Assembly (NCBI GenBank): GCA_002841375.1
Contig: PGZO01000002.1
Location: 62,001-126,000 of the forward strand
Direction of reading: 5' to 3'
From: Firmicutes bacterium HGW-Firmicutes-7
GTDB lineage: Bacteria > Bacillota > Clostridia > Lachnospirales > Vallitaleaceae
DNA: 64,000 bases
Shown in pieces: positions 10,388 through 62,955 of this stretch. How positions within the stretch are numbered: position 1 is the first letter of the stretch; every line of letters starts with the position of its first letter. The notes under the pieces are model-generated. The model ran no database searches. It was not told the origin of the DNA and was given only the letters and a program-made list of their open reading frames with translations. Made by a program: the position numbers and the translations under genes.

Positions 10388-13300
10388 TCAACTATTTAGT
10401 ATCTTTTCCCATATTTCCGTCTTAGTATGTTCTTTTAGTTGTTTATACTCATTCCCCGGAACACCTTTTTCAAATCGACAAACGGGCAAATATTGACAAA
10501 AATCACAGCCTGTTTCACGCTTTCTTTTATATGGATGAACCGATAGATTTCCCTCAATGATTGATGTGCCAATTTCTTTTACCTTCTCTGATACAAATTG
10601 CTTAAGAACTTCAAATTGTTCAATAGATGCCACACTGGAGGTTTTCGTTAACGCGCCATCCACTGTTAAAGCTACTGGAATAATATCTGATGCTTTTTCA
10701 ATACTTGCATCCATTTTTTTAATAATGTGTTGCTGATCAAGCACTAACCCCTTTAGCTTTAATTGCTTCATAATCAGCTTCTCTATTTGTTGTTTATTTC
10801 GTACAGGTACATCTTTAATAATGGGGTCATCAATGTGAAAATAAAATACACCTGCTGGAACAACTTTTTTATGTGATTCATTGGACTTTTTTAGCTCTGT
10901 AACTGAATTTAAATATATAAACAACTGAAGTTGCAGCCCATAATATAATGCAACCAAATCAAAGTTTTGGTTCCCTGACTTATAATCAACAACGGTTAAA
11001 TATAATGCATCCTCATCCTCATAGGCATCTACTCTATCAACGCGTCCGTTGAGCTTCATCGTTTTATTATTGGAAAAATCAATTGTTAAGGCTTCAATTT
11101 TATCTCTGTTGGCATCAAAAGCAAGCTCATATTCAATAGGTCTAAATTCGCCCATAGCTATTTGACCTGCAATGGCCCAAAGGGCTCTTTTTGTAACTCT
11201 AATTAATCTCTTGACTAAGTAAATATTTCTTGAGTTACTCGTAAAGATACCTCTATGTTCTTCTTCTACTACTTCATTTACCGCTTCTTCTACAAGCATA
11301 TCTCTCACATCATCTTGTAGGTTTTTCCAATCCAATCCTCTTGCTTCAATTTTTCTCGAACATTTATCAATAGCTTTGTGAAATAATGTCCCTATATCTG
11401 GCATTTTTATAGAATAGTCTAACCTTTCCTTGAGGTTAAGTCCATAATCCATAAAATGAGCAAATGGGCATTTTGCAAATGATTCAAGTCTGGATACACT
11501 ATTATTAAGTTCGTTACCATAAATAGCCTCCACCGCAGAAGGACACAAATCAATTTCATCATTATTATCTGTTAATGCTTTCTCAAAGTAATGAATAATT
11601 CCGCTCCAATTCTCTTCATTGTAATACCAACGATATAATCCCTTCAATTGCATGTCATCTTGAATAGAATCTACGTGCTTAAGTTTATTTACCATTTGAT
11701 AAAAGGTCGGCTTTGGTTTATTTACAACACATTTATTCAAATAAATCTCATCAAGATCAATTATTTTAATCTGTGAATACATTTTTTTAATCGAATAAAA
11801 TAATAAAGAAGGGCGCATTGACTTCCCTTGTAAGTCTGATTTGGAATAGCTTAAATAAAGCTTTTCACTTACTCTAGTAAGCGCCATATATAAGCTGAAT
11901 TGTTCTTTAAATACATTTTCCTTATTATCTGGTGCTAGTTTAATCCCTAATGACTTTAATTGTACTCTTTCTAAATCTGATATTATATTTGGTTTATCTA
12001 TTACTTTAGGTACTTTTCCCTCATTAAACCCGATAACAAAAAGCGCTTTCGTTTCCTTTAGCCTTGTTCTTTCTAAATCACCAACAACAACTTGATCCAA
12101 ACCAGGTGGCACTAATCCCATTTCACATTCCTCTAAGCCCGCTTGAAGTAATGCTGAATATATTTTTGTAGATGCCGTTTGATCACCTAATATTTCCACA
12201 ATTTGATCCAGTATTTCAACGACCATCTTATATATTTGTTCATATTCCTTTTGATATAATAACTGTCCATCTTTTTCAAAAGCCAATACAAGTTGATTAA
12301 TCTTGCCTTCTACATCAAGGGCTCTCATAAATTGAAATAGTCCCTTTGTGATTTTTACAACTGTGCTTTCTTTTGTATAAATGGCTTCCCTAAGTTGTAG
12401 GAGTGGTGATATTATTTGTTCCTTTACGTTATTAATGTTGTCCATTATACATTTGGCATATGCAGATTCTTTGGCTAGTCCTGGATAGGGCCGTTCCCAC
12501 GGCATTTCCCATGCCTTACGGCCTCTTATTCCATATGCTAACACATAGTTTTCAATACGATCCATTGCTTCTTGACTAATATCCAAAAATCCGGTCTTAA
12601 TATATCTAAATACGCTCGAATAATCAAAATCCTTATTGATAATTTCAAGGGCTGATGTTAGTAGCTCTACTAATGGATGAAGCAAAATTGTTTTTTTCTT
12701 ATCCATAAAATAAGGGATTTCATATTGATCAAAAATTTGTTTTATGATTGTTTCATACCCAATAAGGTCACCTGATACAACGGCAATATCCTTGTATCGA
12801 TATTTTTTTTCATAAATTAGTTTCATAATCGAATCTGCTACATATTGTATTTCTTTTCTCATATTTGAGGCTTGACACATAATAAGTCCTTGAGGCTTAT
12901 AGGGATAAACTTCATAAGGATACCGATATATATTTTTTTCTAAATGTGCAATTTCCGAATTATTTTTGAATCGATAGGGGCTGTAATCATCAATCCATGA
13001 AAATGGCATAATTTGAACTTTTTCTTTTGAAGCAATCTCTAGAAGTTGGTTAAGCACTTTTTTACTTTCATAAAACAACTGGCTTTCATCCTCAAAATCA
13101 TTTGGATCTTCTTTTGAATCAAGAGTAAGCACGATATGTACATTTCTAGATTTTTTTAATAGTTCCCCAATAACCTTGAATTGTATTGGTGTAAATCCAT
13201 AAAAACCGTCTATAAAAATATCTGCATCTTTTAACCATTTATTCCTTGATATTCCTTCAATAAGTAAATCCATTGTATTCTCAGATGTAATATATTTTTC

Positions 13301-46901: not shown

Positions 46902-47150
46902 AAAAAAAGTCTTATCATCCTTAAAAGGACGATAAAACCGTGGTACCACCTTAATTCCTAGTTAAATCTAACTAAGCTCTCATAACGTATAACGTCGTCA
47001 CACGCTTCATCTTACTTAAATTTCTGATGAAGTGCTCCAAAGCTACCTTCTATCAACACCTTTTCTAGAAAACCTTCCAGCCAGCGAGTTTTCTTCTCTA
47101 TAGATGGTATTGATTTACTCCTCTTTATCATTGCATTTATCATTATAATT
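46902..47150 (-). promoter_or_regulatory. T-box riboswitch (valine type) of the valS operon
   Basis: On the minus strand the leader contains a long Stem I (ATCAATACC pairing with GGTGTTGAT, apical GAAAAC/GTTTTC), the specifier loop with GAA-G-GTA (GTA at 47046-47044, a valine codon), the T-box sequence AAGGTGGTACCACGG (46952-46938), and a terminator with stem TTATCGTCCTT/AAGGATGATAA (46935-46912) followed by seven T residues. Uncharged tRNA-Val should pair with the specifier and T-box and prevent termination. Downstream genes are the 72-residue membrane protein and valS. Confidence 0.95.
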
Positions 47151-55656: not shown

Positions 55657-56325
55657 TTAATATATACCCTCTTCTTTATTTTTCTGATTATTTACGATTG
55701 CAATTCCTGCACTTGCCCCTATTCGAGTTGCACCTGCTTCAATCACTGCCATTGCAGTATCATAATCTCTTACCGCACCTGATGCCTTTACACCAACTAC
55801 GCTACCTACGGTTTTTCTCATTAACAGGATATCACTTATCGTAGCTCCACCTGTACTAAATCCTGTTGAAGTTTTTACAAAATCTGCACCAGCTGCTACT
55901 GATAATTCACAAGCTTTCACTTTCTCTTCCTCCGTAAGCAAGCAGGTTTCAAGTATTACTTTTACAATAGCCCCTTTTGCAGCTTTAACAACGCCTTCAA
56001 TATCAGTTAAAACATCATCATACTTTTTATCCTTTAATGCACCTATATTAATGACCATATCAATTTCATCTGCACCTGCCTCAATTGCTTGCAACGTTTC
56101 AAAAGCCTTCACTTCTGCTGATACAGCACCAAGTGGAAAACCTACAACTGTACATACTTTTACATCAGTTCCAAGTAACTGCTCTCTTACAAGCTTCGTA
56201 TAATATTGATTTACACATACAGAAGCGAAACTATATGTTTTTGCTTCCTCGCATATTTTTATTATTTCATCTTGTGTAGCATTAGCTTTTAAGATGGTAT
56301 GATCAATGTACTTTGCAACATTCAT
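55657..56325 (-). CDS. deoC: Deoxyribose-phosphate aldolase
   Basis: Cleaves 2-deoxyribose-5-phosphate to acetaldehyde and glyceraldehyde-3-phosphate in deoxynucleoside breakdown. The 222-residue class I aldolase has [60 protein letters not shown], the Schiff-base Lys in [15 protein letters not shown] and [13 protein letters not shown]. The start is ATG 56325 (seven bases after GGAGG); the longer frame adds 11 foreign residues. No other deo gene is near. Confidence 0.96.
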
Positions 56326-56402
56326 AATAGTACCTCCATTTTCTTTATCATAAGACAAGTTTAATTGTTATTTAAAGCTAAGTCAAATTTTTTTTGTTAA
56401 TA

Positions 56403-56578
56403 TGTATAATACACTTCATTTTGGCAAAACTATTTACTACAGGAAACCTAATTAAATAGATTGTTCGGTTGTAAGGAATTTATTTTTGCCAATGTTATAG
56501 GTTACAAGGTTTCCTGTTAATATGTTCTCCCCCCACATGAGAAAGTGTCTATATAAAAAATAGACACTTTCTTTTATT
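56403..56578 (+). ncRNA. Candidate structured RNA with pseudoknot potential and its own terminator
   Basis: After a TATAAT sequence (56405-56410) four segments occur in A-B-A'-B' order: TTGGCAAAA (56421-56429), ACAGGAAACCT (56439-56449), TTTTGCCAA (56484-56492) and AGGTTTCCTGT (56507-56517). Both pairs are perfect (9 and 11 bp) and interleaved, as in a pseudoknot. TTGTAA/TTACAA adds an inner stem. A strong terminator follows (56541-56578). The piece is 100 bases upstream of the SpoIID-like gene and could be a small RNA or a leader regulator. Alternatively the 11-bp arms could be the ends of a small repeat element. Confidence 0.45.
56541..56578 (+). terminator. Intrinsic terminator upstream of the SpoIID-like gene
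   Basis: GAAAGTGTCTAT (56541-56552) and ATAGACACTTTC (56560-56571) form a perfect 12-bp stem with a 7-base loop, followed by TTTTATTAT. There is no plus-strand gene upstream that it could serve other than the candidate RNA. Confidence 0.88.
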
Positions 56579-56621
56579 ATATCTCATATACTATAATGAA
56601 TATTTAATATAAAGGTGTTTT

Positions 56622-57890
56622 ATGCGACGACGTATGATCTATCCAGCTCAAAATGAAACACAATCACTTGGTCAGCTAACTGTAAATGCGCGGACCGAGG
56701 TTGGATATACCCCCATTAATGGAGCAACTGTTTCCATTTCAAGAACAGGAACAACTGACACAATTGAGGAACTCACTACTGATACTTCAGGGCAAACACC
56801 AGTTATTGACTTACCTTGTCCGCCAATACAATACAGTCTTGAACCTAACAATCCTCAACCTTATTCAGAATATACCGTAACAGTAAATGCTCCTGGTTAC
56901 GAGCCGGTAATCGTATCAGGGACTCAAATACTACCTGATTCTACCGCAATTCAAGATGTATCTATTTTACCTCAAGATCAGACTACTGTTTCGTCCTTAC
57001 AACAAATAGTAATAGCCATTAGTCCTCACACGTTATATGGAAATTTCCCTCCTAAAATACCTGAAAGTCCAGTTAAAGAAGATGTTGAGGAAGGCTTCAT
57101 TGTATTAGAACGTCCTGTAATTCCTGCAACTATTGTTGTACATGAAGGTCCTCCAGATGATCCTTTGGGTAGAAATTACTATGTCCCATTTAAGGATTAC
57201 ATTAAAAATGTAGCCTCTTCAGAAATATACTCTACTTGGCCTGTAAGTACAATTCAAGCTAACATACTCGCCATTCTATCCTTTACATTAAACCGTGTAT
57301 ATACAGAATGGTACCGTGCAAAAGGCAAAAACTTTACAATAACCAATTCAACCGCTTATGATCAAGCCTTTTCATTTGGCAGAAACATCTATAGAAATAT
57401 TTCTGCAGAGGTTGATGCTCTTTTTGTAAATTATATTTCTAAACCTGGCATCAAACAACCTTTATTTACTCAATATTGTGATGGTTCCAGAGTTGAATGC
57501 CCAACATGGTTAAGTCAATGGGGTAGTAGATATTTAGGTTCCCAAGGTTATTCTACGATAAATATACTTAAAAACTATTATGGTCAAGATGTTTTTCTTA
57601 GCACTGCTGAAAGAGTAGCTGGCATTCCCGCCTCCTTTCCAGGCACGAATTTGCAAGTAGGTTCTAGAGGCACAGCAGTAAGAATAATACAAAATCAACT
57701 TAATGCAATTTCTAATAAATTCCCTGCAATTCCTAGGATAAGAGTAGATGGTGTGTTTGGTCAAAACACTAGAAACGCTGTTCAAACCTTTCAGCGCGTA
57801 TTTTACTTACCACAAACAGGCATTGTAGATTATCCAACTTGGTATAAAATTTCCGATATTTTTACAGCAGTTGAACGGCTTGCAGCATAA
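56622..57890 (+). CDS. SpoIID-like protein with peptidoglycan-binding domain
   Basis: A 422-residue protein. Residues about 15-115 resemble a carboxypeptidase-like/beta-sandwich domain (LGQLTVNARTEVGYTPINGATVSIS). Residues 185-330 look like the SpoIID/LytB wall-hydrolase-associated domain (YVPFKDYIKNVASSEIYSTW, ANILAILSFTLNRVYTEWY, NSTAYDQAFSF). Residues 345-415 form a PG_binding_1 domain (LQVGSRGTAVRIIQNQLNAI, VDGVFGQNTRNAVQTFQRVF). No signal peptide is seen, as is common for spore-specific wall proteins. It probably acts on spore or cell-wall peptidoglycan. Confidence 0.85.
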   Translation: MRRRMIYPAQNETQSLGQLTVNARTEVGYTPINGATVSISRTGTTDTIEELTTDTSGQTPVIDLPCPPIQYSLEPNNPQPYSEYTVTVNAPGYEPVIVSGTQILPDSTAIQDVSILPQDQTTVSSLQQIVIAISPHTLYGNFPPKIPESPVKEDVEEGFIVLERPVIPATIVVHEGPPDDPLGRNYYVPFKDYIKNVASSEIYSTWPVSTIQANILAILSFTLNRVYTEWYRAKGKNFTITNSTAYDQAFSFGRNIYRNISAEVDALFVNYISKPGIKQPLFTQYCDGSRVECPTWLSQWGSRYLGSQGYSTINILKNYYGQDVFLSTAERVAGIPASFPGTNLQVGSRGTAVRIIQNQLNAISNKFPAIPRIRVDGVFGQNTRNAVQTFQRVFYLPQTGIVDYPTWYKISDIFTAVERLAA

Positions 57891-60086: not shown

Positions 60087-60455
60087 CTATTCGAATAAAG
60101 TAATATCTAAAGCTTCATAAAATTCTGCATTAATATACTTGGTTTTAGTTAAACCTTTATCTTTTTGAAATTTTGTTACTGCACTTTGCATGCCCAATCC
60201 ATATTTACCATCTACCCAACCTGTATAATAGCCAAGCTCTTTTAAACGTTCTTGAATTGCATAAACATCAGAGCCAATTGCACCAGGCTTTAATGTTCTA
60301 AACCCATCTCCAAAGGGACCATAGGCACCTTTAATAATGGTTACCTCTGTGCCAACATTTACGGTTTTTTTAAGTTCTTTAGCATCATCATTATACATAC
60401 GAATACAGCCCTTAGAAAGGGATTTTCCAATGGACCACGGTTCATCTGTAACGCA
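60087..60455 (-). pseudogene. 3' fragment of an L,D-transpeptidase (YkuD) gene cut by the mobile element
   Basis: From codon [20 protein letters not shown] onward the frame encodes the end of a YkuD L,D-transpeptidase domain, with the catalytic Cys in SKGCIRMYN and [10 protein letters not shown], followed by a peptidoglycan-binding domain ([36 protein letters not shown]). The homology stops abruptly just before TDEPW, exactly where the conserved HGT should be; upstream sequence belongs to the serine recombinase end. The 5' half, with the signal and the catalytic His, is not in the window. The frame runs on to 60560 by chance. Confidence 0.88.
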
Positions 60456-60480: not shown

Positions 60481-62073
60481 TTAAATATTCCAATGTATAA
60501 CAACTTCTTGATTGTCAATCTCGTCCTTTTGTCCAACCTCAATGTAATCAATAAAATCATCGGCCATTTCCCTTGTTAACACGGTAAGATCTTTATGTTT
60601 ACTTAATAACTTACCAACATCAATCTTTTTATTTGCCTGATTTTCATTTAAGGTAATCTGCTTTTTCAACTTACTTATAGCCTTTTGGTAATTTAATAAT
60701 TCAGCATCAAAGTTTTGTTTTAAAAAAATAAAATCATTTTCTGTTATAATACCCTTTACCTTATCTATATAAAGAGAAGACAAGGCATTAACTATATCGT
60801 TATGCTTCATTTCTAAGTTTTTCAAATCACTTTCTTTTGAAATAATTTCTTTCTTCAATCCCTCTTTATCGCTCAACTCCTTAGCTAGTTTATCTAAATC
60901 TTCACTCTCGTTAATATAATTATTAACTAGTTTATTTATTCTGTCCAGAATAATCTCATGCAAGATATCAATTTTAATAATATGACTGGTACATCCCTTG
61001 TTTCGTGTCTTGAATGCAAACTGGCATCTAAGTATATTATTAGACTTACTCATATTAGAAGTACAATCTAAACATTTAACTTTACTAGCAAGTACATGTG
61101 CTTTTGCAAGGTTTCCCTCTTCCGAAGAACAAACTTTACGGTTAGCTTCACGTAATTTCTTTACCCTGTAAAAAATCTCTGGATTAATAATTGGATCGTG
61201 GCAGTTTTTAACAACAATCCATTCACTTTCTGGTAGTTTTATTGTTTTTTTACTTTTATAGCTAACCTTCTTCTCCTTACATTGCACCATATGCCCTATA
61301 TACACCTGGTTAACTAACATACTTTGGATTGTAGTACGTCCCCATACTCCATATCTGTCAGAAAATTGTGCCCCATTAGGATTTTTAAAATTAAACCCTT
61401 TTTGTTTTTTATATTGGGTAGGTGTTGGAATCTTTTCAGAGGTTAAAATATCTGTAATTTGCAAATATCCATATCCCTCTAGATATAAATCGAAAATTTT
61501 TCTAACAACTTCAGCTGCTGGCTCGTCGATGAGAAATTTATGTTTGTTCTGAGGATCCTTTTTGTATCCGTAAGGAGCAAAGGCTCCTGTAAACAACCCT
61601 TTTTCTTTTTTTTGTTTAAAAACATATCTAATATTCTCTGATAAATCTTCACTATACCATTCATTAATTAATCCATTTATCTGTCTTGACTTTTTATTTC
61701 CCGGCACCTTTGTATCAACATTATCCACTACTCCTACAAATCTAATTCCAAGTAGTGGAAACAATCCATGGATATACTTTTCTACACTTTCCATATCCCT
61801 AGTAAATCGGGACTGTGTTTTACATAGAACGATATTAAACTCTAATCTTTTGGCAGCTTTTATCATAGAATTAAAAGCCGGTCTACCCTCAAATCCCGAA
61901 TAATCATCGTCAACATAAACTTCATGTATCTCAATATTGTTTCTAGTGGCATATTCGATAAGGAGCTCTTTTTGGTTCTGAATGCTCTGGCTCTCGTCAA
62001 GTTTACCTTCTTTATCTAAATCTTCTTTAGATAACCGGCAATATAATGCAGCTCTATTCACATCCTTCATCAT
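60481..62073 (-). CDS. Large serine recombinase
   Basis: A 530-residue site-specific recombinase. The N-terminal resolvase domain (about 5-150) has the nucleophile Ser in [10 protein letters not shown] and the Arg motif [14 protein letters not shown]; the recombinase domain (about 165-270) has [12 protein letters not shown] and [18 protein letters not shown]; a zinc ribbon (CLDC...[12 protein letters not shown]) sits at about 335-370, followed by a coiled-coil region (about 390-470). It resembles phage, ICE and skin-type integrases. AAGGAGG is 14 bases before the ATG, longer than usual. It lies directly beside the disrupted transpeptidase gene. Confidence 0.95.
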
Positions 62074-62846: not shown

Positions 62847-62955
62847 ACATTTGAACCCGGCAATTTATTTGGACTCCGCATACCGATGAGCGGAGATACA
62901 TTTGAACCCAGCGACTTATTTAGAATCCGCATACTGGTAAGCGGAGATACATTTG
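62847..62955. repeat. 51-bp tandem repeat, two full copies and a start of a third
   Basis: Copies begin with ACATTTG at 62847, 62898 and 62949, an exact 51-base period. Full copies differ at about ten positions. Each contains a small hairpin (TCCGC...GCGGA) whose stem is kept although its loop differs, and ends with GCGGAGAT. They lie 26 bases after the hepT stop codon. There is no cas gene and the copies touch without spacers, so this is not CRISPR. Confidence 0.85.

Follow-up and report, generated by a model that had tools for sequence, protein, structure and literature searches.

C-rich single-stranded regions that pair with Shine-Dalgarno sequences are the mode of action of the small RNAs (sRNAs) RoxS and FsrA, as set out in an excerpt of PMC10433868. 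CsfG was once listed as an orphan riboswitch upstream of ylbH and was later shown to be an sRNA of endospore formers, according to a part of PMC3574147. In C. difficile, a sigma-K promoter drives sleC, and a sigma-K -10 element reads CATATAAT, according to the section of PMC3789822 on which we draw. Here, we describe an intergenic region beside a sleC-like gene that an earlier note had read as a pseudoknotted RNA with the layout of a riboswitch, leader attenuator or small RNA. Genome comparison gives good support to a real, strongly conserved small-RNA gene that is structured and terminator-ended. Our best reading, to which we give about an even chance, is a stand-alone sRNA that pairs through its C-rich tail with ribosome-binding sites.

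The locus between deoC and sleC

The window, meaning the whole 64,000-nt stretch of DNA that was analysed, belongs to the genome designated G000. The features of the locus, in window coordinates, are as follows.

55657–56328, minus strand: deoC, divergent neighbour upstream (TIGR00126, E=3.7e-84)
56405–56410, plus strand: candidate -10 element TATAAT of the RNA in this genus, read from the sequence (6/6 bases kept in the congener G001)
56421–56429, plus strand: arm A (TTGGCAAAA), opposite the TGG..TATACT/GATACT/TATAAT element when aligned to relatives; in G001 its first base differs
56439–56449, plus strand: arm B, 5' strand of closing helix P1 (covariation, 10 sequences)
56450–56506, plus strand: interior enclosed by P1, holding A' (56484–56492) and TATAGGTTAC (56496–56505)
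56507–56517, plus strand: arm B', 3' strand of closing helix P1 (covariation, 10 sequences)
56522–56538, plus strand: C-rich tail ATGTTCTCCCCCCACAT, candidate seed (TGTTCTCCCC in 10/10)
56539–56573, plus strand: intrinsic terminator of the RNA (terminator scan, repeat search)
56585–56592, plus strand: CATATACT, sigma-E/K-like -10 element of sleC, 3' of the RNA terminator
56622–57890, plus strand: sleC-like spore cortex-lytic enzyme precursor (PDB 9h68_A, E=1.1e-129; PG_binding_1)

By homology, the spore gene beside the RNA is of the sleC type, the closest solved chain to its product being 9h68_A, 'Spore cortex-lytic enzyme pre-pro-form' (E=1.1e-129). The repeat search recovered both perfect inverted repeats in the interleaved A-B-A'-B' order previously described, namely A/A' at 56421–56429 and 56484–56492 (TTGGCAAAA/TTTTGCCAA, 9 bp) and B/B' at 56439–56449 and 56507–56517 (ACAGGAAACCT/AGGTTTCCTGT, 11 bp). 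The strong terminator said to follow them was scored at 56539–56573 with 14 pairs (arms 56540–56552 and 56560–56572), against an average of 0.1 terminators per shuffle, and it indeed has no gene to serve, since no coding gene precedes it on the plus strand. The TATAAT in front is likewise present at 56405–56410, though the consensus promoter scan reported no plus-strand promoter there. Used as a -10 element, it would put the transcript start near 56416, with arm A included. With moderate confidence we place the small-RNA gene at 56421–56573, its 5' end being uncertain and lying near either 56416 or 56436.

Chance expectation was assessed with 2000 dinucleotide shuffles of the 137 bases 5' of the terminator. 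A perfect stem of at least 11 bp arose in 0.85% of these and one of at least 9 bp in 7.6%, so B/B' by itself exceeds chance whereas A/A' by itself does not convincingly do so; two interleaved stems of at least 9 bp each arose in 0.1%. The 170-nt fold had a z-score of -3.7, with 1/200 shuffles folding equally well, a score to which the terminator contributes.

Other features of the window were recorded in passing. A T-box leader lies at 46922–47140 on the minus strand (131.7 bits). An L,D-transpeptidase end (YkuD and PG_binding_1) with a frame cut N-terminally was found at 60087–60449 and 60481–62073, both on the minus strand; G001 has an uninterrupted 241-codon frame, and in G000 the other half is about 55 kb away, continuing to G000:C28:177549. 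The 13-bp direct repeat ACGGTTCATCTGT (60437–60449) stands at both ends of the insert that splits this gene. A relaxase (PF03432) and a ParA-type ATPase are encoded within the insert, which therefore resembles integrated elements of the conjugative or mobilisable kind; the window end carries a large serine recombinase. Two tandem 51-nt units, 84% identical, occupy 62847–62948 inside this putative mobile element.

Conservation, structure and distribution of the RNA

The earlier note would have given up its proposal had the region been unconserved, and the region proved to be conserved in 10 genomes. Positions 56422–56549 are identical between G000 and G001 at 128/128 bases, compared with 547/672 in deoC and 1046/1272 in sleC (81–82%), a pattern indicative of strong purifying selection acting on non-coding sequence from 56422 onward. 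Immediately upstream, positions 56411–56421 keep 6/11 bases and the TATAAT keeps 6/6. The RNA-bearing genomes are 9/22 of the window's family (3/8 genera) and G042 of another family.

P1, the B/B' helix, is common to all ten RNAs. In the ten-sequence alignment 100/100 cells pair, and both sides have changed in 4/10 pairs, a number reached by 5/500 shuffles; the covariation score of 0.340 was reached by 0/500. Slid controls of P1 had 29.5–58% of cells paired. With nine sequences, 3/10 pairs had changed on both sides and 100% of cells paired, and within genus g3 alone variation was one-sided only. In G042 the helix is extended to 14 bp (ACAGAGATACAAAT/ATTTGTATCTCTGT). Comparative sequence analysis therefore supports helix B/B' by covariation, and the covariance check that had been suggested for homologous regions came out differently for the two pairs, with B varying with compensation and A without it.

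The distance between the 10-bp P1 strands is 59 nt in g1 (the window's genus), 123 nt in g5, 127–134 nt in g3 and 340 nt in G042. The motif TATAGGTT from TATAGGTTAC of the interior, or a close form of it, recurs. P1 is followed by the C-rich tail, in which UGUUCUCCCC and the core TGTTCTCCCC each occur in 10/10 sequences 3' of P1, and then by a terminator-like hairpin. T-rich sequence follows this hairpin in nine of the ten RNAs; G005 is the exception, where a T-run comes only after a second hairpin. The tail sits outside P1 and the terminator stem and is predicted to be accessible. Its flanking ATGT/ACAT could form a 4-bp hairpin in 8/9 family sequences, which is absent in G042. A 14-bp inner hairpin and a long-range CAACC/GGUUG pairing are possible in 6/6 g3 sequences; both are hardly variable and give no covariation evidence among these six. 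Read as a small protein, the interior was not conserved by eye.

As a separate observation, the inner hairpin of the six g3 RNAs (L120, L116, L119, L121, L122 and L117) contains ATG(G/A)ATAATAAATTAGCCTTTATATA, readable as the short peptide start M(D/N)NKLAFI in frames of differing length. By eye, this reading is apparently absent from the g1, g5 and G042 RNAs.

Several searches bear on distribution. A search with the tail pattern matched 8/22 family genomes. The covariance model R1 matched 12/22 at E≤1, nine of them convincing; the matches in G004, G018 and G010 were dropped as false on reading the sequence, and a second match in G017 (E=0.64) was dropped unread. Over 391 genomes of the class the model returned only G000 and G373, the latter judged false on the same grounds. 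Over 392 genomes of the order it returned the nine, the new genome G042 and G743, the last a false match consisting of a tRNA and a terminator. In 162 of the 196 genomes searched by BLASTN there were matches at E≤1, almost all of them short. Those taken further were G001 and five g3 genomes, all five sharing query part 94–144; other short matches were left out, among them some with E values better than the 0.0035 of G009 (G100, G182, G186, G076, G036 and G075). Because strict filters were applied whenever more than 40 genomes were searched, absence elsewhere is not firm. Reading by eye about 430 bases 5' of deoC revealed no such RNA in G016, G012, G010, G014 and G018 or in G002, G015, G007 and G006; this reading left out family genomes G004, G008, G011 and G019. 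A pattern search of genome contigs found 7 stretches; 4 belong to Vallitalea/Vallitaleaceae records, and the remaining 3 looked like chance matches on inspection by eye. A phage origin was also considered and dropped: AATATGTTCTCCCCC occurs in 23 stretches of viral contigs, none of which was seen to have P1 and a terminator within 40 bases on either side.

The earlier note had recognised no known riboswitch class, and Rfam agreed, giving no credible family for the window and relatives at gathering or relaxed thresholds. The best relaxed match in G013 was a microRNA model (26.8 bits against a cut-off of 79), and a minus-strand purine-riboswitch match, at 23.1 bits, fell well short of its cut-off of 37, so that no aptamer class could be assigned. 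The RsaE model had no match at E≤10 in the window, G013 or G005, and homology to RsaE/RoxS was thus not found. Literature searches of open-licence PMC papers, including those on Vallitalea, yielded no description of this RNA. Judged on the genomes searched, it is a lineage-specific small-RNA family outside the recognition of Rfam 15.

Candidate functions and the relation to sleC

Comparison shows that P1 holds the 5' end against the 3' part and encloses an interior whose length and sequence differ from lineage to lineage. In the stand-alone sRNA that we favour, the transcript would start at a housekeeping-type promoter, end at the terminator and act in trans. The C-rich tail would pair with the G-rich Shine-Dalgarno sequences of other mRNAs and block their translation, as RoxS/RsaE and FsrA do, a mode that we infer because a C-rich, nearly invariant stretch before a terminator is typical of such sRNAs. 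sleC would be transcribed separately, from a sigma-K-type promoter 3' of the RNA terminator. Several points weigh against this reading, among them the outcome of the target searches given below. Proximity to sleC and co-occurrence with it also fit a cis-acting or sleC-linked role or shared ancestry, the aligned -10 element is poor in the window's genus (AAAACT), the first hairpin of G005 has no T-run, and G042 does not have the exact YTCATATAMT element seen before other sleC genes.

Target searches were conducted with the tail. With one mismatch allowed, the 12-mer complement occurred 96 times in the nine family genomes that carry the RNA and its control 95 times, so there was no enrichment; where matches were listed, one in each genome was the RNA gene itself. 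The counts in G006, which does not carry the RNA, were 72 and 10. The pattern GGGGGAGN{4,9}ATG matched 200 times in the nine genomes and its control 86 times, a surplus that ordinary Shine-Dalgarno sequences would be expected to produce. The matches listed left out rows of G003, G009 and G017. One hundred stretches were read (16 from G000, 30 from G001, 11 from G005, 27 from G013, 16 from G021, which had 36 matches in all, and none from G020), giving 65 start-codon readings of at least 60 aa from five genomes, two of which were second starts of the same frame. Among these 65 readings of the matches listed, no gene with GGGGGAG before its start was common to g1, g3 and g5. Homologous pairs among the readings of the matches listed numbered three between G000 and G001 and one between G001 and G021 (63%), and three weaker cross-genus pairs (26–42%), again among the matches listed, were transporter paralogues by eye.

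In 6S RNA (RF00013), too, a long closing helix surrounds an internal region, and its length is similar to that of the g3 and g5 RNAs. A 6S-like or scaffold RNA with a structural or protein-binding role is an unlikely alternative. P1 and the tail would then be the parts that contact a protein, with the interior as filler, which would account for the constancy of P1 and the tail around an interior of 59 to 340 nt; this constancy suits a seed-bearing sRNA equally well. The RNA is not 6S itself, for the single match above the Rfam cut-off lies elsewhere in 22/22 family genomes (at C30:138720-138895 in G000) and RF00013 had no match at the sRNA locus. The Rfam search also identified no known protein-binding motif.

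We regard it as distinctly unlikely that the RNA is a cis-acting leader of sleC, whether riboswitch, attenuator or antiterminated leader, with the terminator as control point. Position speaks for it: sleC is the next gene 3' of the RNA in 9/10 genomes, and a second family shows the order deoC-RNA-sleC as well. The RNA is moreover present in exactly the 9/22 family genomes that have sleC at E≤1e-10, and because of this co-occurrence and the gene order a functional link to sleC may exist. A switch could also be imagined from the nested folds of the window RNA, which are mutually exclusive and 2.9 kcal/mol apart, B/B' (-21.8 kcal/mol) being preferred over A/A' (-18.9 kcal/mol). However, only short A/T pairings (7–10 bp) among those listed touch the terminator, arm A is not conserved outside g1, and no Rfam riboswitch matched. 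YTCATATAMT, a sigma-E/K-like element, stands 5' of sleC and after the terminator in 9/9 family genomes, G005 included. G042 favours a leader to the extent that its sleC has no exact copy of this motif, although the looser CATATTCC and CATATATT are present. A riboswitch or leader would be expected to have a same-strand gene directly downstream in every copy, and G005 departs from this: it keeps the RNA beside deoC although the next two downstream genes (GH94 family and LacI family) are on the opposite strand and some 4 kb separate the RNA from sleC. The sigma-K-like -10 element after the terminator and the G005 arrangement indicate that sleC probably does not need the RNA's transcript. Among the three layouts first proposed, a small RNA fits best, and a leader or riboswitch is disfavoured because of the absent Rfam match, the separate promoter-like element of sleC and the 4-kb separation in G005.

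The sleC gene itself is split near residue ~300 in G005 (L115:6400-7305 and 11092-11472) and G009 (L116:3010-3933 and 10414-10800). The two inserts differ, each encodes a large serine recombinase close to the C-terminal half, and they resemble the skin-type intervening elements of sporulation genes. That of G009 carries GerA, spore-permease and GerAC germination-receptor genes.

The pseudoknot that gave the earlier note its heading did not hold up among relatives, where A/A' is confined to the two g1 genomes. An H-type pseudoknotted RNA in g1, with arm A pairing with A', is in our view highly doubtful. Both stems are perfect in the window, the loops of 9, 34 and 14 nt are compatible, interleaved stems of this length are rare in shuffles (the 0.1% given above), and the TATAAT at 56405 could start the RNA 5' of arm A. 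Against it stands the 7.6% chance rate for a single 9-bp stem. G001 keeps 8/9 A/A' pairs but has lost the outermost one through the change at base 56421, and A/A' shows no covariation, whereas an H-type fold would be expected to keep both stems with compensation. Arm A also aligns with a segment of the relatives that, read by eye, is promoter-like: TGG and then a -10-like TATACT, GATACT or TATAAT, 6–7 bases before P1, the corresponding bases in the window's genus being AAAACT. In the seven family relatives outside g1 (7/8 of all relatives outside it), this segment is complementary to the RNA over 7 bases at most. G042 does offer nine bases, GATATAATA (1153–1161 with 1315–1323), with a perfect interior complement in A-B-A'-B' order; they include the -10-like TATAAT, and would hence be untranscribed by that promoter, and the interior is 340 nt long and AT-rich, so the match is taken as chance and leaves the likelihood of a pseudoknot unchanged. 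A pseudoknot of A/A' with B/B' is therefore not supported by the related sequences, and A/A' appears to be at most a genus-specific feature, given the at most 7 complementary bases in the family relatives and the pair lost in G001.

A wider conjecture, to which we give little credence, is an undescribed Lachnospirales RNA family whose function would reside solely in P1, the C-rich tail and the terminator, with the interior of 59 to 340 nt as an exchangeable cassette; in g1 the lost promoter segment would in addition have become arm A of the transcript and then part of a genus-specific pseudoknot that could toggle access to the tail. That the region is a repeat element or a functionless chance cluster of hairpins is scarcely credible and was rejected: it is intergenic and AT-rich, but BLASTN with 231 bases found a single full-length copy in the genome (40 further matches were short), the 11-bp arm has no further copy within the window, so that the arms are not the repeat copies against which the earlier note had cautioned, and the 128/128 conservation and covarying P1 argue for function.

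The locus would thus add a covariation-supported RNA family, new to Rfam 15, from poorly studied spore formers. It illustrates that genome comparison can separate a leader-looking RNA from the adjacent spore gene, and the free change of the interior marks which parts of the RNA deserve study. The C-rich tail leads to a specific, testable prediction on post-transcriptional control in these bacteria.

Comparison with described small RNAs

Like RoxS/RsaE and FsrA, as they are presented in an excerpt of PMC10433868, the RNA is terminator-ended and has a conserved C-rich stretch suited to G-rich Shine-Dalgarno sequences. Unlike them, it has one C-run where they have three, a long-range closing helix, a variable interior and targets that are putative, and no covariance-model relation to them was found. 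The CsfG locus is ylbG-ylbH, and no similarity to CsfG was seen through Rfam, which may or may not hold that RNA. CsfG nevertheless offers a useful precedent, for the two share conserved CU-rich stretches, a spore-former setting, an intergenic position and an initial interpretation as a leader, as far as a part of PMC3574147 describes CsfG. By description, in an excerpt of PMC10267692, the RNA can also be likened to SpoX and SpoY of Clostridioides difficile, clostridial sRNAs that base-pair at the 5' UTR of mRNAs.
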